Positions 4,525-25,597 of a stretch of 25,597 bases of DNA are shown one piece after another. Both the position numbers and the translations under genes were made by a program. The stretch comes from a virus, in IMG/VR virus record IMGVR_UViG_3300021962_000584, positions 1 through 25,597 of that record; one strand, written 5' to 3'. Position 1 is the first letter of the stretch. The number at the start of each line of letters is the position of its first letter. The notes below the pieces were generated by a model. It saw only the letters and a list, made by a program, of their open reading frames with translations, was not told the DNA's origin and did no database searches.

Positions 4525-5123
4525 AGTCCAATTGCTAAATTATATTCCTCTTTTCCTAATACTCGTAGGTATTCAAGTTTATCTAATATTTCTTGTCTTA
4601 CAATCGTTTCAGCAAATCTGTCGTCTTGTAAAAGTTTATCCATCTCTGCGGCAATCAAATCATTCACCTCTTGTGTGAATAATGGTAATCCCTTATATCC
4701 CGCTTTGAATAAGTTTGTTCTAACGGCAAATGCGATGGACTTGGCTTGTGCTCCCCTTATCTGTAATTTATCATTTACCCATTTTTCCAATTTCTCTAAT
4801 AATGGGGAATATTTACCTCTGGCTCCTGGTGGTCTTCTATCAGGGTAATACTTACCACCGCCAGGCCAAGAACCACCTTCACCGCCAGTAGCAGCAGCCA
4901 AATCAGAAAATACATATTGAACCCCGTAATCTTCCATTAGAATTAGTATCTCTTCGTCCATAACAACATAAGACACACTACGCAATAGATTACCTGATGC
5001 GGTAAAATTGTAAGTCCCCTTTGGAATGTTCCCCCTCTTTGTATATCGCATACGGGGGGTAAGCATTTCTGCTCTTACAATCTTGACTATAGCCTTACCT
5101 AACAAATCCAAAAATTCTTCCAT
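4521..5123 (-). CDS. Neck / tail-completion protein, HK97 gp10-like (putative)
   Basis: A 200-residue protein whose ATG overlaps the TAA of the upstream neck-lectin gene (TAATG) and whose stop overlaps the start of the Cys-rich tail protein (ATGA). An N-terminal helix is followed by a basic, Gly-rich central part (GNLLRSVSYVV near 44, then a Gly/Pro-rich loop near 78-100) and a C-terminal helical half. The layout, with an N-terminal amphipathic helix, a G-x-L-x-x-S segment and a flexible glycine loop, and its position between a terminator-like protein and tail proteins, resemble HK97 gp10-type head-tail joining or tail-completion proteins. I see no catalytic motif. The family assignment rests on layout and context and is moderate; a structural search would settle it. 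Confidence 0.55.
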   Translation of the reverse strand: MEEFLDLLGKAIVKIVRAEMLTPRMRYTKRGNIPKGTYNFTASGNLLRSVSYVVMDEEILILMEDYGVQYVFSDLAAATGGEGGSWPGGGKYYPDRRPPGARGKYSPLLEKLEKWVNDKLQIRGAQAKSIAFAVRTNLFKAGYKGLPLFTQEVNDLIAAEMDKLLQDDRFAETIVRQEILDKLEYLRVLGKEEYNLAIGL

Positions 5124-6316
5124 TATAGCCAGTAAGGTTGTCTGTATTTATCTTTCAAGTATTTCAATACTCCGTTATATTCATCGTCTGTGAGTTTTCT
5201 ATCGTAGATAATTGCCTCACAGATATTCAAATCACCAGTCCCACCTGGCACAATATCACCTAATATGATATAATCAAAATCAGTCGTATCTGTAGTAATT
5301 GGTGATGCTACTAAATCTTCATAGTTATACACACCACCATACATATACATTTTCATATCACTTGTAAGTCCATCTTGTAATGATGTGGTAATAAACGCAT
5401 TATTTGATGGGTCAATACTACCACCCAATATTTGTGTTAGATAATTTTGTCCCGATTGATATACAGATGCCGTCAATCTATAAATATTTATACCCGCATC
5501 TCTCAAGTCAAATAGAGTTGAAAAGGTATTACCAGTTACTACACCAAACACAGAACGGATACTATCAGTATTTTCCCAATCACTTACCAAGAACATCGTA
5601 TATCCACTTGGGAATGATACTGGTGATGATAGGTTATGTTGTAATCCCGTCATATTTGTATCATACAACGCATAGAATGGTGTTAGATTACCCGATGGGA
5701 CTTTCTGATAAGTTGGTGGTGTATTGAATGGTGTTAGGGTATAGTTATTACCTGACTTGTCTAATAGTTGTGTAATTGATGTTCCCCCTGTTAGTGTGAT
5801 TGTATCTGCGTCTTGTAAGTCATACCAAGCAAACAGCCCGCTTACAGCATTTGGATTGAGCGGGACAGGGACAATAGAAGCAGGGATACACGATGTTTGT
5901 TCCATCGTAATAACAATCTGTGCTTCAACACCACAAACACTTTCTGCGAACCTATCAACAAACGGACTAAATGTAATCGGCATTTGAAGATAATATCCAT
6001 AGTCGGTGAGCTGGTTGATAAACTCATTTACAAAGTCATTCAGAATGTCTTGGCATAAAGCCATACTATCCAACTGATTTGAATTGATGGGGTCTCCAAC
6101 ATACTCATTCAATAAGTCATAGATAAGAACTGAAAAAGTCATATCTGTTGATGTGTTCCCCAAAGTAGCGGGGAGTGGCACGATATGTAAGGCGGGGTAT
6201 TGTGTAATATAATCTTCCCTTGAATAATCAGACAGATTACCCCAACTGAAAGTGCGAAGAATGGGGTGTTGCTCTGTAAAATTTCTAAAATAATCTATAA
6301 GTGTTTTTATATTCAT
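5123..6316 (-). CDS. Tail terminator/neck-like protein fused to a LamG/ConA-type lectin domain
   Basis: A 397-residue protein with two distinct parts. Residues 1 to about 150 look like a tail-completion/terminator protein: an N-terminal helix, a YPALHIVPLPATLG strand, then a long helix (about 95-125) and a strand with QIVITMEQTSC, a pattern typical of minor tail or neck subunits that sit at the top of a siphovirus tail. Residues about 155-397 look like a concanavalin/LamG-type jelly roll: the opening VSGLFAWYDLQDADTITL, a LLDKSGNNYTL turn and a closing ICEAIIYDRKLTDDEYNGVL helix are characteristic of phage and secreted LamG-like domains. The ATG overlaps the TGA of the -1 frame extension of the chaperone-like gene. 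A glycan-binding domain on a neck protein suggests decoration exposed on the virion; this is inference. Confidence 0.7.
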   Translation of the reverse strand: MNIKTLIDYFRNFTEQHPILRTFSWGNLSDYSREDYITQYPALHIVPLPATLGNTSTDMTFSVLIYDLLNEYVGDPINSNQLDSMALCQDILNDFVNEFINQLTDYGYYLQMPITFSPFVDRFAESVCGVEAQIVITMEQTSCIPASIVPVPLNPNAVSGLFAWYDLQDADTITLTGGTSITQLLDKSGNNYTLTPFNTPPTYQKVPSGNLTPFYALYDTNMTGLQHNLSSPVSFPSGYTMFLVSDWENTDSIRSVFGVVTGNTFSTLFDLRDAGINIYRLTASVYQSGQNYLTQILGGSIDPSNNAFITTSLQDGLTSDMKMYMYGGVYNYEDLVASPITTDTTDFDYIILGDIVPGGTGDLNICEAIIYDRKLTDDEYNGVLKYLKDKYRQPYWL

Positions 6317-6597
6317 TTTATAGCGTTTTTGTATTTTTGGTTTTCCCTATCAGCTTTATCTAACCTATATGATAAATACGACAATACCTGATATAAATTT
6401 AGTTTTAGAACTTCCCCTTGATTTAGTAGATTATCATTACAAGCCAACATCAAGGAGTTATAGTAGAAATCTACTATTGTTTGTAAAATTTCTTCTTTTG
6501 TAGTTTCTTCGCTTCGTTCATTAGTTTCTGTTTCTTCAGGTTGTTCTCCATAGAGCCTAACAAATTTTCCGTATATTTCTGCGCGAAAGTTGCTAAA
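6313..6597 (-). CDS. -1 frame extension of the tail assembly chaperone-like gene (predicted frameshift product)
   Basis: The -1 frame relative to the upstream 205-residue ORF is open from just upstream of a T10 run (bases 6595-6604) to a TGA at 6313-6315, which overlaps the ATG of the neck-lectin gene. It encodes 94 residues beginning FSNFRAEIYGKFVRLYG, then an acidic Glu/Thr stretch and a helical end (about KLNLYQVLSYLSYRLDKADR). It has no ATG before about residue 50, so it is best explained as the C-terminal half of a 259-residue fusion made by slipping back one base on CTT TTT TTT TTA. The composition is protein-like and the gene spacing only closes up (ATGA overlap) if this frame is translated. 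The alternative is a homopolymer miscount in the assembly (T11 would make one continuous ORF). Confidence 0.7.
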   Translation of the reverse strand, partial: FSNFRAEIYGKFVRLYGEQPEETETNERSEETTKEEILQTIVDFYYNSLMLACNDNLLNQGEVLKLNLYQVLSYLSYRLDKADRENQKYKNAIK

Positions 6598-7091
6598 AAA
6601 AAAAGCGACGATGTGAATACTGGCATAGGAAATGAAAGAAACTCATTATAGCGACTTTCACATTCAGACAAGTCATAATCTATCAATTCCCTATCATCAC
6701 CCACCTTATCCGACTTTAGTGGTTTGTAAAGGTGTGTTGCTAGAAGTGGTAAATTCAAGGGGGATTGTCCCATAAACACTTCCAAGTTTATCCATTCTTC
6801 AAAGGTCAATTCTGACGGCTTTATCAATCCATATTTTTTACCATTATGTGTATAAACCAAATCTAATGTTCCAGTATCATCATCAGCCCCCCAGCTACTT
6901 CTAATCATGGACGCAATAAAATTGATTTTGTGAAATGGTTGTTTCATCAATTCTTTCTTGGGTGCGTTGGTAAATCTAACGATTAGGTCTATGTCTTTTA
7001 TTTTTGAACCTTCACTACTTGTATAAAAATTGTAGTCCTCTAAAGTTAGGGGGTTGATTTGGTATTCGTTTTCACCTATTACTAGTTTCAT
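6474..7091 (-). CDS. Tail assembly chaperone-like protein (gpG-like), with frameshift site
   Basis: A 205-residue protein whose ATG overlaps the TerL stop (ATGA). It starts with a short beta unit (MKLVIGENEYQINPLTLEDY) and continues as a mostly helical, soluble protein; residues 125-165 contain a segment ending FPMPVFTSSLFF at a T10 homopolymer. The zero frame continues 39 residues into a Lys-rich tail and ends at tandem TAG TAG. The -1 frame continues 94 residues to the next gene. A short and a long form joined by a -1 slip is the hallmark of phage lambda gpG/gpGT-type tail chaperones, which load onto the tape measure protein during tail assembly. The N-terminal sequence resembles tail-chaperone-like proteins of other phages only loosely, so function is inferred mainly from the slip architecture and the tail-operon position. 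Confidence 0.6.
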   Translation of the reverse strand: MKLVIGENEYQINPLTLEDYNFYTSSEGSKIKDIDLIVRFTNAPKKELMKQPFHKINFIASMIRSSWGADDDTGTLDLVYTHNGKKYGLIKPSELTFEEWINLEVFMGQSPLNLPLLATHLYKPLKSDKVGDDRELIDYDLSECESRYNEFLSFPMPVFTSSLFFLATFAQKYTENLLGSMENNLKKQKLMNEAKKLQKKKFYKQ

Positions 7092-8254
7092 ATAAAGCTG
7101 TATTTTACTTTTGGTTTATCCATAAATTCCATCATCACATATCGTAGAGCATCTAATAAGTGGTCTTGACCTTCTGGCACATTTGTTAGACGACCACTTC
7201 TGTCTCTTTTGAATTTGTAATTTCTGAACTCTGCTTGTAAGTTTTCAGATGTCTCTTTTACAAATATCTTATATGTTCTAATTTTCTGAATACCAAACAA
7301 TACAGAACCTTCACCTTTTTTTACACCTCTAATTCTAAACCCCGCTCTTCGTAGTTCTTCTATTGATTTGGGTTCAGCACTATCTGCTACAATTTCAGTT
7401 GTTCTGTCTATTCCGTATTCTTTCAATAAATATATCAAATCCGCATTTGTTAGTCCCTGTTCGTAAATCACTTCTTCCACATAAACATTACCATCAGCAG
7501 CCAGCATTACTTTCACTACACCACAAGGGTCAGAACCAAAACCCCAGTCAAGTCCGATGTATGTGGATTTGATTTGTGTGGGGGGTTCAGAATATGTCTC
7601 TGGTTGAACGAATATCTTTTCACGGGGTGGAACTATCTTTCCTTCAGCATAAATCAAATACAAGTCATAATCTGTGTCTTTTAGGGACATAATAGATTGA
7701 CGGATACTATCTTCTAAAAAGGGGTTCTCCCTGAATGTTGAAATAATCAATTCTGCGTTGTCCTTCTTTTCATAGTCAAACCCCCACCAGTATTCATCAA
7801 CTTCAGGGTTGTATGCTCCGATGATATAATCTTCACATCTGATGTCTAATTGAACGAAGCTATTTCTGTCTATGGTGTTTATTTCATCTACCATAGCAAT
7901 CGTGGATTTTAGACCACGCAATTTTCCTGTTGTATCATCTAACCCTATGAACCTTACGATTGAACCATTCTGAAATGTATAGGTCAAATCCACTTTATTT
8001 AGTGTCCCCAAGTGGAATATACCCATCGCCTCTAATTGTTGTTTGAAATCAATTAGAATGGTGTTCTTGATGGATACTTGTGTAGCTCTGGCTATGGTAA
8101 TAGAAATACCTGGTCGGGTTAGTGCTTCAACAATTAGTGTTTGAACTGCGGCTATTGATTTACCACTTCTACTTGAACCACGAAGAAAGATGTATCGTTT
8201 ATTTTCTTTGGCTTCATTTATTTTCAGGTATAGTTCCGTTGCTTGTATTTTCAT
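7088..8254 (-). CDS. terL: Terminase large subunit
   Basis: A 388-residue packaging ATPase/nuclease. The Walker A motif GSSRSGKS is at residues 26-33 and Walker B IAMVDE at about 119-124 (D123, E124), giving the motor that pumps DNA into the prohead. The C-terminal RNase H-like nuclease that cuts the concatemer is recognisable from acidic residues in GLDWG (D236), VADSAEP (D291) and DHLLDALRY (D364, D368). It is complete but short for the family, with almost no extra N-terminal domain. The ATG at 8254 lies 41 nt inside the end of the small-subunit gene, the usual terS-terL overlap. Phage terminase_3/PBSX-type large subunits share this motif order. Identification is secure. Confidence 0.95.
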   Translation of the reverse strand: MKIQATELYLKINEAKENKRYIFLRGSSRSGKSIAAVQTLIVEALTRPGISITIARATQVSIKNTILIDFKQQLEAMGIFHLGTLNKVDLTYTFQNGSIVRFIGLDDTTGKLRGLKSTIAMVDEINTIDRNSFVQLDIRCEDYIIGAYNPEVDEYWWGFDYEKKDNAELIISTFRENPFLEDSIRQSIMSLKDTDYDLYLIYAEGKIVPPREKIFVQPETYSEPPTQIKSTYIGLDWGFGSDPCGVVKVMLAADGNVYVEEVIYEQGLTNADLIYLLKEYGIDRTTEIVADSAEPKSIEELRRAGFRIRGVKKGEGSVLFGIQKIRTYKIFVKETSENLQAEFRNYKFKRDRSGRLTNVPEGQDHLLDALRYVMMEFMDKPKVKYSFI

Positions 8255-11342: not shown

Positions 11343-11634
11343 ATCTTTTCTTATTTCGTTCTTCTACTTGTTTCCAAACAGGTTTTTCTTTATTATATGG
11401 GTCATAACCCATTCCAATAAGTATCTCGTTGATGCTATTTCTATCGTTATTCTTTTTAGTTTTCATAGCTTTTTTAGCTATACAACTTCTACACATCAAA
11501 CAATTTCCATAGGCATCAATCCAATCTACACAACCAGTAAATTTACTCTTGGGAAGCCATAATTTACAACTATCGCATTCGTATTCCCATTCACCGATTT
11601 CATTTACACGCTTTCTTCTGACTATCTGTTCCAT
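11335..11634 (-). CDS. Small zinc-ribbon protein, related to the one at 10323
   Basis: A 99-residue protein from ATG 11634 starting MEQIVRRKRVNEIGEWEYEC. It has CDSC followed about 25 residues later by CRSC, plus extra Cys in the loop, and ends with INEILIGMGYDPYNKEKPVW, a tail matching that of the 81-residue zinc-ribbon protein. The same frame is open upstream to 11784, adding a hydrophobic T-rich-encoded stretch (MSAILLLFQIILF...). I prefer the short form because the upstream DNA is a poly-T/hairpin intergenic region, but a membrane-anchored longer form cannot be excluded. Function unknown; DNA or RNA binding is inferred. Confidence 0.6.
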   Translation of the reverse strand: MEQIVRRKRVNEIGEWEYECDSCKLWLPKSKFTGCVDWIDAYGNCLMCRSCIAKKAMKTKKNNDRNSINEILIGMGYDPYNKEKPVWKQVEERNKKRYG

Positions 11635-11646
11635 AATAAAAAAAAA

Positions 11647-11733
11647 GGGGGGATAAGCGAAAAAAAAAATTATCATAAACAGAATAATCTGAAATAAAAG
11701 TAAAATAGCAGACATAAAAAACTTATCCACCCC
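11647..11733 (-). repeat. Long-loop inverted repeat followed by T9 (possible weak terminator)
   Basis: Minus strand GGGGTGGATAAG (11722-11733) pairs with CTTATCCCCCC (11647-11657) with one bulged T and a loop of about 64 nt rich in T; nine Ts follow (11638-11646). It lies between the replication genes and the zinc-ribbon ATG. The loop is long for an intrinsic terminator, hence low confidence in that function. Confidence 0.35.
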
Positions 11734-11746
11734 TGTATAATAAATA

Positions 11747-12511
11747 TTACAATTCCAAGTCAAAAACATCAAGTGTTTCTTCATGGGACTTCCAGTCAGC
11801 CTTACCGCTCTTTTTTTGATTTACAAATCCAAGTCCAAGCTGATAGACGGGCTGATTGTCTATGGTCTGTTCTGTTTTTATGCCTTTTTCAACCAAGATA
11901 CTTTCTTCAAAAGTTCTCATCGTTGGATATTGTTTCCAATATTCAGGGTGTAAATTCATTTCAAGGTCTGTAATCCACTTTTCCAACATCGGTGGGGTCA
12001 GGGTATTCAAATCAAGTTTCGTTTCATTACAGAAGACCTGGTAGTCCTTTACGGACATTATTACACCTTTGGGTGTAAGACCCTTGAGTGCTATTTCATT
12101 TTTCGTTGAATATCTTACCAAAATTCCGTTGGAAGTTCTGGTTGTTTTTGTATTCTTCCATTTGGGTAGTTCATACTTGTCCTTGATAAGTTCCACAGCC
12201 TGCCATTCAACAATTTCACCAAAGTTGTTTCTAACGGGCTTCCATAACTTGTTGGAATATTCTTTAGCTAATTGCTTGGATAAATTTGTAATACTTTGAT
12301 AAACACTATCTTCAGTTGCTAAATCAGTTTCCAATCTGTCCCAAAACCAGTGGTCTTGGTTCTCATCAAGGAAATCAACTATTCCGTTGAAGATATTATC
12401 TTCTACCAAATTCGTAGAATACTTTTTGATAAATGGTTGTAGGTCAAACCATAGTTGAAGCAAAAAATCGTCTGTGTTTGCTTCAAATGCTCCGATGTAA
12501 TTTGTTTTCAT
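11747..12511 (-). CDS. Replication-module protein of unknown function
   Basis: A 254-residue protein whose ATG overlaps the stop of the initiator-like gene (ATGA), so the two are translationally coupled. It is rich in Trp, Lys and Asp, predicted helical in the first 110 residues, with a basic middle (about 125-165) and an acidic C-terminus. There is no Walker motif, zinc site or nuclease signature, so it is not a DnaC-type ATPase or primase by sequence. By position it could be a partner of the initiator, in the way lambda P follows lambda O, loading or recruiting a host helicase; this is context-only inference and the family is not recognised. Confidence 0.6.
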   Translation of the reverse strand: MKTNYIGAFEANTDDFLLQLWFDLQPFIKKYSTNLVEDNIFNGIVDFLDENQDHWFWDRLETDLATEDSVYQSITNLSKQLAKEYSNKLWKPVRNNFGEIVEWQAVELIKDKYELPKWKNTKTTRTSNGILVRYSTKNEIALKGLTPKGVIMSVKDYQVFCNETKLDLNTLTPPMLEKWITDLEMNLHPEYWKQYPTMRTFEESILVEKGIKTEQTIDNQPVYQLGLGFVNQKKSGKADWKSHEETLDVFDLEL

Positions 12512-13287
12512 TTTTGTAAAAATTTATTTAGTTGTTCTAGTGCTAATTTATTTTGTTCTTCTTTGGATAGTTTTTTTGGTTGAGCTCTGAAATTTTTGAT
12601 TACAGCCCACGAATATATGCCATCTTGAAGATAATACGCTAATTCTTTTTTGTAATACCCTTTTTTGTTCTTTTCACTTTCCAAATATAAACAATATTTT
12701 TCCGCATTATCAAATGCTAATTTTCGTTGGACTGCGTCTAACCTGTTCCACACTTGGAATGCCTTTTCCATATTCACCCCCTCTTCGTTGTATCGTTCAA
12801 CCAAAGAAAGAAAATCAGATGGGTAGGCTGACGGCTGCCAGACAGCAGCTATACTATCATCTATATTATCTACTATATTATTTATAGACGACCTGTCTAT
12901 AGCTATAGACGAATTGTCTATAGGGTATAGACCATCTGTCGTGGGGGTATAGACATCTTGTCTATGGGGGATAGACAGATTGTCGTGGGGTTCTTCTTCA
13001 AGGGAACATACCAAATCTTCAATACCAGTAAAAATTTCAGGTTCTTTTTGAAGATAGATAAATCGTCTTTTACCATCAAAGAAAATCTTGATATATCCTT
13101 TTTCAGTAAAGTTGGAAATGATACGACTAATTTGTCTTTCAGACACCCCAATCTTATATGAAGCATATTCATTTGAAAAGCATATTGATTGCTTGGATTT
13201 ATGTAATCCAACAATAAGGGACATCAAGACATTTTCATCTGCCTTGAAGCCCTTATATGTTTGGAAGACAATAAAATTACTCTTCAT
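12508..13287 (-). CDS. Replication initiator-like winged-helix protein carrying an internal origin
   Basis: A 259-residue protein from ATG 13287. The N-terminal domain (about 1-90, starting MKSNFIVFQTYKGFKADENV) has the pattern of a phage/plasmid initiator winged helix: helices, then SNEYASYKIGVSERQISRII (HTH), KGYIKIFF strand and RFIYLQ wing. A low-complexity linker (about 110-160, Asp/Ile/Ser rich) is encoded by a repeat array resembling an origin. The C-terminal helical domain (about 165-259) resembles DnaD-like or helicase-loader-binding tails. An in-frame ATG at 13419 would give 303 residues, but overlaps the HTH gene by 143 nt; the chosen start overlaps it by only 11. The arrangement copies lambda O, where iterons lie within the gene between the DNA-binding and partner-binding domains. 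Confidence 0.75.
   Translation of the reverse strand: MKSNFIVFQTYKGFKADENVLMSLIVGLHKSKQSICFSNEYASYKIGVSERQISRIISNFTEKGYIKIFFDGKRRFIYLQKEPEIFTGIEDLVCSLEEEPHDNLSIPHRQDVYTPTTDGLYPIDNSSIAIDRSSINNIVDNIDDSIAAVWQPSAYPSDFLSLVERYNEEGVNMEKAFQVWNRLDAVQRKLAFDNAEKYCLYLESEKNKKGYYKKELAYYLQDGIYSWAVIKNFRAQPKKLSKEEQNKLALEQLNKFLQK
12849..12884. repeat. Three tandem AT-rich 12-mers (candidate DNA unwinding element)
   Basis: CTATACTATCAT, CTATATTATCTA and CTATATTATTTA follow each other without gaps at 12849, 12861 and 12873. They sit directly beside the five iterons, as the AT-rich 13-mers do at many bacterial and phage origins. Confidence 0.7.
12883..12988. repeat. Five dyad iterons (candidate replication origin)
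   Basis: Five 19-bp units start at 12883, 12904, 12926, 12948 and 12970: TATAGACGACCTGTCTATA, TATAGACGAATTGTCTATA, TATAGACCATCTGTCGTGG, TATAGACATCTTGTCTATG, GATAGACAGATTGTCGTGG. Consensus TATAGAC-N5-GTCTATA, an inverted repeat. Periods are 21, 22, 22 and 22 bp, two helical turns, so an initiator would bind one face. The period is not a multiple of three, so selection is on DNA rather than on the encoded peptide. Confidence 0.8.
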
Positions 13288-13483
13288 TCTTATTGTCTTC
13301 AAAAGTGATGTATCCCCAACGACCATTTGGATTTGTTGGGTCTTCCATTCCAAGACGAATTTTTCTAATGTGTCCCGCAGACACTCCGTAATCTCTGGCA
13401 ATCGTGGTTGATTTTTCACCCGATGCTAAACGCTTCTTGATTTGACGAATTACACGCAAACCATACAATTTGATTTTTGGCAT
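13277..13483 (-). CDS. Small helix-turn-helix protein
   Basis: A 68-residue protein beginning MPKIKLYGLRVIRQIKKRLA. The middle (about 22-45) is a clear resolvase/homeodomain-like HTH: SGEKSTTIARDYGVSAGHIRKI, with recognition helix around VSAGHIRKI. A short NPNGRWGYITF strand follows, as in HTH modules attached to phage homing nucleases, but no nuclease is present. It is the first minus-strand gene after the divergent control region and is preceded by the promoter at 13539-13567 and a palindrome at 13511-13525 in its own leader, so it could regulate itself and the replication operon. It overlaps the start of the initiator gene by 11 nt. Confidence 0.75.
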   Translation of the reverse strand: MPKIKLYGLRVIRQIKKRLASGEKSTTIARDYGVSAGHIRKIRLGMEDPTNPNGRWGYITFEDNKNEE

Positions 13484-24456: not shown

Positions 24457-25597
24457 TTACAATTTAGCCAAATTTTGTATTCTGGCATTTAGTTTTTCTG
24501 TGTTCTGAATGTCGTTATACAGAACATAAGTTTTTATGGGGGTTTGTGAAGTATTCTGTGAAGCTATTGCTTGAACCAATCTACTATCGTCAATCTGTAA
24601 AGGTCTGCCACCGACGCTGGCATTCAAAGACCCAACCAAATCCCCGTATTTTTCAACAGCGGGTCTTGATAATACAAATTCGCCACCTTCCAACATAGCA
24701 GGGACACCCCCGCCTTCGTGACTGGCACCTTGTATTAGACCACCTCGTCTTCCTATAAATACTTTACTCTTCGTAAAGTTTATTTGCTCGTTTATTACGG
24801 CTACTTGTGCTGCGGTTATTCCACCCAACACACCCGCATATATCGCTCCAAATGGTGCGGGGATTGTAGCTAATGCGTTGATGATGGCTTGAGCTGATTG
24901 TGATAATGCGTTCGCTAAACCAAATTGAAGTTCTTGAATACGAGCTCGTTTTTCAATTTCAAATCTTCTTTTCTGAAATTCCTTTTCAGCCTTTTCCCTT
25001 TCAGCCAGTATCTTCTTATTTTCATTTGCGTTTTCTGTATTAGCCTCACCAATCAAATCTAAAGTAGCTTCCTGTTCGTATTGTAATTGCTCCAATAACA
25101 AACTCGTTGATTGTGATATAACATTACTAATCTGATTTGATAAATCGCTGAATACCTGTAATACTTGGTCTGCGATTTGCTTGAACTTACTTTCACTAAA
25201 TGTTTGTTCCCAAGTTTTAGCAGCATCTTCTGTAGCGGCTGGTAAATCTTTCAGGTTCTTCAGAATTTCTGTAATGATGTCGTTGAATACTTCCGCACCC
25301 TGTGGTAATCCCCCTTCTTCAAATTGTTTCTGAAGTTCGTTTAGTTGTAATACTAAATCTTGGACTTGTTCTTTGGTCTCAAATGAAATATCAGCCAAAC
25401 CTTCAGCACCCTTCTTGATATAATCTATCAACTGCTGTGGGGATAATACCTTCAATAAATCTGTTCTAATATTGTCCGTATCTTGAAGTATTCTATCCAA
25501 GAAACCTAAAAATTCTTCTGAACTACTTGTTGCTAATTGAGCCAAGTTTTGACCTAATTTTTCAAGTTCTTCTGCTGTAAGAGCGATGGGGTTTCCT
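24457..25597 (-). CDS. Tape measure protein, C-terminal part (N-terminus outside window)
   Basis: The frame is open to the right edge without a start, so about 379 residues of the C-terminal end are seen. A TTG at 25545 could serve as a start, but the upstream codons (GNPIALTAEELEKLGQNL) are in the same frame and read like protein. A helical region is followed by a long charged coiled coil (with ILAEREKAEKEFQKRRFEIE), a hydrophobic Ala/Gly-rich segment (NALATIPAPFGAIYAGVLGG) and a GGLIQGASHEGGGVPAMLEG motif followed by GEFVLSRPAVEKYG, which is the usual C-terminal signature of phage tail tape measure proteins. It sits just before the protease gene, not directly after the chaperone-like gene. 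Confidence 0.8.
   Translation of the reverse strand, partial: GNPIALTAEELEKLGQNLAQLATSSSEEFLGFLDRILQDTDNIRTDLLKVLSPQQLIDYIKKGAEGLADISFETKEQVQDLVLQLNELQKQFEEGGLPQGAEVFNDIITEILKNLKDLPAATEDAAKTWEQTFSESKFKQIADQVLQVFSDLSNQISNVISQSTSLLLEQLQYEQEATLDLIGEANTENANENKKILAEREKAEKEFQKRRFEIEKRARIQELQFGLANALSQSAQAIINALATIPAPFGAIYAGVLGGITAAQVAVINEQINFTKSKVFIGRRGGLIQGASHEGGGVPAMLEGGEFVLSRPAVEKYGDLVGSLNASVGGRPLQIDDSRLVQAIASQNTSQTPIKTYVLYNDIQNTEKLNARIQNLAKL

Follow-up and report, generated by a model that had tools for sequence, protein, structure and literature searches.

Two-length products generated by −1 recoding in the genome region considered here are characteristic of phage tail chaperones. In the lambda gpG/gpGT and HK97-type systems, late genes give a short form and, by a −1 shift, a long form (PMC5009743 and PMC3711429, in the parts used here). 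A different process, programmed transcriptional realignment, operates in genes of IS elements, in Thermus dnaX and in type III secretion genes (parts of PMC5009743 and PMC1088944). The locus described below shares with the chaperone genes the short form and the predicted −1 long form, and ORF1 gives a weak fold match to the HK97 chaperone 2ob9 over its first 68 residues. It differs from them in that the slip site is a U9–U11 homopolymer, the gene lies directly after the terminase gene, frame 0 extends 13–55 codons past the site, no sequence family is matched, and distant relatives use a single ORF. With the realignment genes it has in common an A/T run of about nine or more nucleotides with a coding frame one base slip away; unlike them, an in-phase ribosomal heptamer is always present as well.

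The window, a stretch of 25,597 nucleotides of viral DNA (IMG/VR record IMGVR_UViG_3300021962_000584), carries the genes listed in Table 1. An earlier note on this DNA had proposed a programmed −1 frameshift at the T10 run, joining two halves of a tail chaperone-like gene. The start codon of ORF1 lies in an ATGA shared with the terminase large subunit gene. Past the run the −1 frame is open, as had been stated, but for 93 codons; the 94 given earlier include the stop, which indeed lies in an ATGA overlap with the next gene. Upstream of the run the −1 frame is closed, the closest stop being 16 codons before it, and ORF2 has no in-frame ATG until about codon 50, in line with the earlier remark that no usable start lies near its beginning. 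The product fused in silico has 259 residues, so that both proposed lengths (205 and 259) were reproduced. From one start, standard decoding would yield the short form; at the U9–U11 run a fraction of the decoding events would slip by one base and append ORF2 in the −1 frame, and if the ribosome is responsible, this would be a tandem slip on the in-phase U_UUU_UUU. The comparisons below make it highly probable that programmed −1 recoding yields both forms. The window is AT-rich and T10 runs are expected 1.25 times in its shuffles (2 were found), so the run alone is not evidence; what exceeds chance is the conservation of the run, not its presence. A tract at 11638–11669 (minus strand) consists of T10, then C6 and T9, just 5' of the probable start of a 99-aa ORF near 11634, and mechanical ORF calling extends through it.

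Table 1. Positions in the window of the features at and around the recoding junction.
Feature	Position	Strand	Remarks
TerS	8693-8214	minus	first in minus-strand gene order
Terminase large subunit (TerL)	7088..8254	minus	immediately 5' of ORF1; Pfam Terminase_3 1.2e-18; PHROG terminase
ORF1, frame 0	7091-6474	minus	205 aa, short form; conserved domain is residues up to ~165
T10 slip run (U10 in mRNA)	6604-6595	minus	frame 0 reads CTT TTT TTT TTA
In-phase U_UUU_UUU heptamer within run (CTT TTT TTT)	6597..6603	minus	candidate ribosomal slip site
ORF2, −1 frame past run	6313..6594	minus	93 codons + TGA; C-terminal part of long form
ATGA overlap of ORF2 stop and next gene start	6313..6316	minus	stop 6315-6313, ATG 6316
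Genes after ORF2	6316-5123, 5123-4521, 4524-2239, then one off left end	minus	gene order
Probable tape-measure protein, C-terminal part	24457..25545	minus	weak: PHROG 3336 tape measure E 0.0039

Homologues were collected through the upstream part (ORF1) only. A search of viral contigs with the ORF1 alignment yielded 57 close-family loci. Together with the window these make 58 sequences, two of which stop short of the junction; a T9–T11 run is present in all 56 others. Two of the 56 (L070 and L071) end exactly at the last T of a T10, as if the assembly had been unable to pass the run. The sequences that continue past the run have ORF2 in the −1 frame, with one exception (L024/L004); in L023 the −1 frame is open to the contig end, and in L029 it stops after 61 codons, near the contig end. 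A second search added four new close-family loci, each with T10 and ORF2 in −1. The exceptional sequence, L004 (equal to L007, L015 and L024), has an ORF1 98% identical to that of the window and a T9 at 2570-2578, as a result of which frame 0 stops right after the run and ORF2 lies in the +1 frame; the −1 relation would thus be lost in L024, if the T9 count is real. Further along, the product of the window gene at 5123-6316 and its counterpart in L004 (2857-4056) are near-identical over the first ~170 residues and clearly more divergent over the rest, which looks like a modular C-terminal domain. Another near-identical contig, L002, differs from the window in the middle of one protein (12508-13419 versus 3-905 of L002), which looks like mosaic exchange.

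A gene after TerL with a T9 run and a −1 ORF was also found in L013, the TerL of which is 41% identical, and in two cultured phages of Nonlabens, P12024S and P12024L. Searches with these three led to 29 remote-family loci; one stops before the junction, and the remaining 28 all have T9 or T10 with ORF2 in −1 (L165, among them, looks like an IMG/VR copy of P12024L). Near-duplicates were removed at an ungapped identity of at least 95%. L070 and L071 (which end at the run), L075, L076 and L143 (which end before it) and L072 (which lacks the start of the gene and has T10 with ORF2 in −1) were left out of the count, and L020 was added, giving 50 distinct junctions (30 close-family, 20 remote-family). 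The comparison of related phages that the earlier note had called for bears out its frameshift layout: a run of T9–T11 is present at 50/50 junctions (15 T9, 34 T10, 1 T11), in all three codon phases, and ORF2 follows in −1 at 49/50, the exception being L024/L004. The 46 junctions with complete products fall into 20 clusters at 70% identity (11 close, 9 remote). Four sequences (L024, L023, L141 and L029) are not part of this clustering, of the fused-product profiles or of the single-ORF comparison. Frame 0 continues past the slip site over the range given above at all distinct junctions except L024.

The close and remote families match each other on both sides of the junction, with E 1.2e-20 for ORF1, a probability of 98.6 and E 5.6e-16 for ORF2, and E 1.3e-30 for the fused products at ~20% profile identity. 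In the annotation of P12024S, two hypothetical proteins (gp38 and gp39) stand at the junction; the remote ORF1 matches PHROG 32199 and the remote ORF2 PHROG 38404, both of unknown function. These two PHROGs, which hold gp38 and gp39 of P12024S/L and their relatives, are homologous to the window family across the junction and have the T9 run and the −1 relation, but they are filed as two separate families and differ from it at the low identity just given. The annotation of the cultured phages thus seems to have missed the join.

Elsewhere the protein is encoded without a junction. Flavobacterium phage 6H was matched in a fold search with the ORF1 model (E 3.7e-3), and its relatives 2A and FPSV-F7 have one uninterrupted ORF of 293 aa. 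By tblastn, 27 records were obtained, including phages of Cellulophaga, Polaribacter, Bacteroides and Microcystis. Six single-ORF proteins (Flavobacterium 2A and laban6-1, Cellulophaga Ingeline_1, Polaribacter Leef_1, Bacteroides BT-TP2 and Microcystis Mea-Yong924-1) were aligned and compared with the fused profile of the remote family, giving a probability of 99.0 and E 2.4e-18 over 242 columns across the junction. Taken singly against the remote profile, 2A, laban6-1, Leef_1, BT-TP2 and the Microcystis phage gave E values of 1.4e-8 to 3e-6 and Ingeline 0.0014, although the single alignments do not all span both parts; the close family alone fell short of significance when compared with the single-ORF proteins (E 0.014, prob 3). 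These proteins belong to PHROG 25418 (259–301 aa), by profile the same two-part protein as that of the remote family, but in one ORF, and the six phages have no long T-run at the matching point. Since distant phages encode the two-part protein as one ORF, it is very probable that the −1 fusion does exist as a protein. The earlier note had counted relatives with an uninterrupted ORF against a frameshift; they do exist, in a group of distant phages only, where they support the fused product and do not refute the split in the window family. Comparison establishes that the gene is split, that this layout is conserved and that other phages encode the fusion in a single ORF; from these we infer that the fusion is made in the window phage itself, in some ratio to the short form. 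Not every phage of the wider group shows an obvious separate short form, in contrast to the lambda paradigm. In 6H itself (L170, 10030-10930, minus strand) the single-ORF homologue is broken into a 191-aa gp10 and an unannotated gap, while the ~97% identical DNA of 2A and FPSV-F7 keeps the 293-aa ORF; the break is an error or a natural disruption.

Relatives of the close or remote family were absent from the GTDB genome contigs. With L161, L144 and L154 as queries against phage genomes, only the Nonlabens phages were matched; L169 gave no match. A match to MT838548 was discarded as a chance match, being a GC-rich, primase-like region with neither T-run nor −1 layout. The fetched stretches of five phages with similar terminases (Olleya Harreka_1, Riemerella PJA1, Cellulophaga phiST, Phocaeicola BV737P2 and Bacteroides BS-TP2) contain no T-run/−1 layout; A7–A8 candidates in the scan of such phages numbered three in PJA1 and one in BV737P2. 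The terminase match in OQ791282 (Shigella phage Henu10) shares coordinates and score with that of Riemerella phage vB_RanS_PT15, which suggests a mislabelled host or record. P12024S/L infect Flavobacteriia and the single-ORF relatives mostly infect Bacteroidota; the window phage probably infects Bacteroidota.

Codon choice at the run was examined in 30 close-family sequences. The Leu before the two Phe is CTT in 25/25 sequences with Leu there, against a background of 15.5% of Leu codons and a top-codon share of 0.36–0.61 at other conserved Leu columns, and the two Phe are coded TTT TTT (30/30 and 29/29). In the codon that precedes the run codon (column 162), C or G is the last base in 25/26 sequences with offset 1, a feature at the nucleotide level adjoining the run on its 5' side, while such codons make up about a quarter of Ala codons; all these counts come from related sequences and do not represent independent events. 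Among 193 mechanical ORFs of at least 120 aa from the same contigs (junction genes excluded), one T9 and one T10 occur, both in an apparent non-coding extension 5' of the gene starting near 11634. For the frame-0 tail of the short form (the last ~40 residues), synonymous reshuffling that keeps the −1 protein was used, leaving out L024, L023 and L141. The tail was no longer than under reshuffling (p<0.05 in 0/28 close-family sequences and in 1/19 others), and we dropped it as a selected feature because reshuffling gives similar lengths. With no sign of selection on the length of this tail, the functional short form may perhaps consist only of the first ~165 residues.

The structure of ORF1 was predicted with AF2 at a mean pLDDT of 85.7; the model of ORF2 (mean pLDDT 56) was too poor for use. 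The HK97 tail assembly chaperone 2ob9 was the only solved structure with Z of at least 2 among 179 chains (Z 2.7, rmsd 4.1, 67 residues), a score in the range below 8 that is stated to be noise. The ORF1 model also matched a 'Tail assembly chaperone' entry of BFVD weakly (E 6.4e-3), and in the PDB no Foldseek match reached E<=0.001. Contig L002 extends further, with a gene for 840 aa followed by one that resembles a tape measure, an order that places the putative, weakly identified tape measure four genes downstream of ORF2, on the same strand. In 6H the homologue lies 5' of the annotated tape measure. Its layout and position point tentatively to a tail assembly chaperone; of the earlier description as 'tail chaperone-like', the two-frame layout held, whereas the family goes unnamed in the Pfam, NCBIfam and PHROG models, the distance to the weakly identified tape measure is four genes, and the HK97 match is weak.

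Four readings compete with parts of this proposal. A miscounted run, with T11 in the actual DNA and one continuous ORF, as the earlier note had also considered, might be thought of because homopolymers are error-prone and the near-identical contig L004 has T9 instead of T10. Random miscounts would, however, not always leave the same frame, and the −1 relation is kept at all but one of the distinct junctions across T9, T10 and T11 and three codon phases, including those of the cultured P12024S and P12024L; a miscount is effectively excluded. It is very improbable, too, that ORF2 begins at an internal ATG and is never fused: the annotation of P12024S as gp38 and gp39 and the in-frame ATG some 50 codons into the window ORF2 would fit two separate proteins, but the part of ORF2 that precedes any ATG is conserved in an alignment of 20 homologues and aligns across the junction with the single-ORF homologues. 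If recoding is real, the protein might still come in two lengths and yet serve on the neck side, or in some other structural or morphogenetic role. This is the less probable assignment but a serious one, given the location directly after the terminase and not directly before the tape measure, the Ingeline single-ORF homologue two genes after an annotated adaptor protein, and the absence of a family model naming the protein. On the other hand, −1-recoded two-length products in this region are characteristic of tail chaperones (PMC5009743, in the part used here) and the HK97 chaperone, though weak, is the only solved-structure match. On these analogies we regard a tail assembly chaperone working like gpG/gpGT as reasonably probable.

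As for the machine that slips, precedent (PMC5009743, as far as it was used) gives the ribosome a slight lead, which makes it somewhat better than an even bet. U_UUU_UUU is in phase at 50/50 distinct junctions, and motifs of the type H_HH.U_UU.Y work efficiently in E. coli (PMC4066793, in the part used). Alternatively, as the earlier note had pointed out, RNA polymerase would insert one U at T9–T11 by programmed transcriptional realignment, and some mRNAs would then be single-frame and need no ribosomal slip. We hold this to be somewhat short of even, with the polymerase close behind the ribosome, and both are possibly acting together. It would agree with a run of at least nine T at every junction, the length at which a large share of bacterial genomes show evidence of selection against slippage (PMC1088944, in the part used), with its occurrence in all three codon phases, and with the lack of any T9+ run in a clear gene among the 193 mechanical ORFs. 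The T9 neighbour and the two contigs breaking at the run would fit a length-unstable tract. Nor was a stimulator found, be it a downstream structure or an upstream SD, which are common in ribosomal −1 frameshifting but not universal: RNAalifold gave 0 consensus pairs downstream, folding z-scores were about those of a control stretch, with a slight excess for the 90 nt after the run in the close family (mean −1.0 vs −0.4), and an SD-like motif was absent from 30/30 close-family and 17/20 remote-family junctions (three remote ones have one). Against realignment, the known tail-chaperone cases are described as ribosomal (same part of PMC5009743), and run length does not discriminate, because an in-phase U_UUU_UUU, with the Phe after it also encoded in the −1 frame, takes up ~9–10 T by itself; run length and the invariant CTT were therefore dropped as evidence for the polymerase. 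The depletion of T-runs in the other ORFs was likewise dropped as a discriminator, since it begins at T5 with no step at 9 and extends to in-frame heptamers (21 vs 38 expected).

Overall, the data make of PHROG 32199, 38404 and 25418 one two-domain protein, and the two arrangements of this protein, with a slip site and without one, can be compared as they occur in nature. If the polymerase reading is true, programmed transcriptional realignment would determine the two lengths of a phage assembly protein, and this would be conserved on both sides of a deep divide among uncultured phages, the cultured members of which infect Flavobacteriia; in the literature searched, consulted in part, no such phage case was found. 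The locus provides a clean test for telling ribosomal slippage from that of the polymerase at the poly-T run of a phage.
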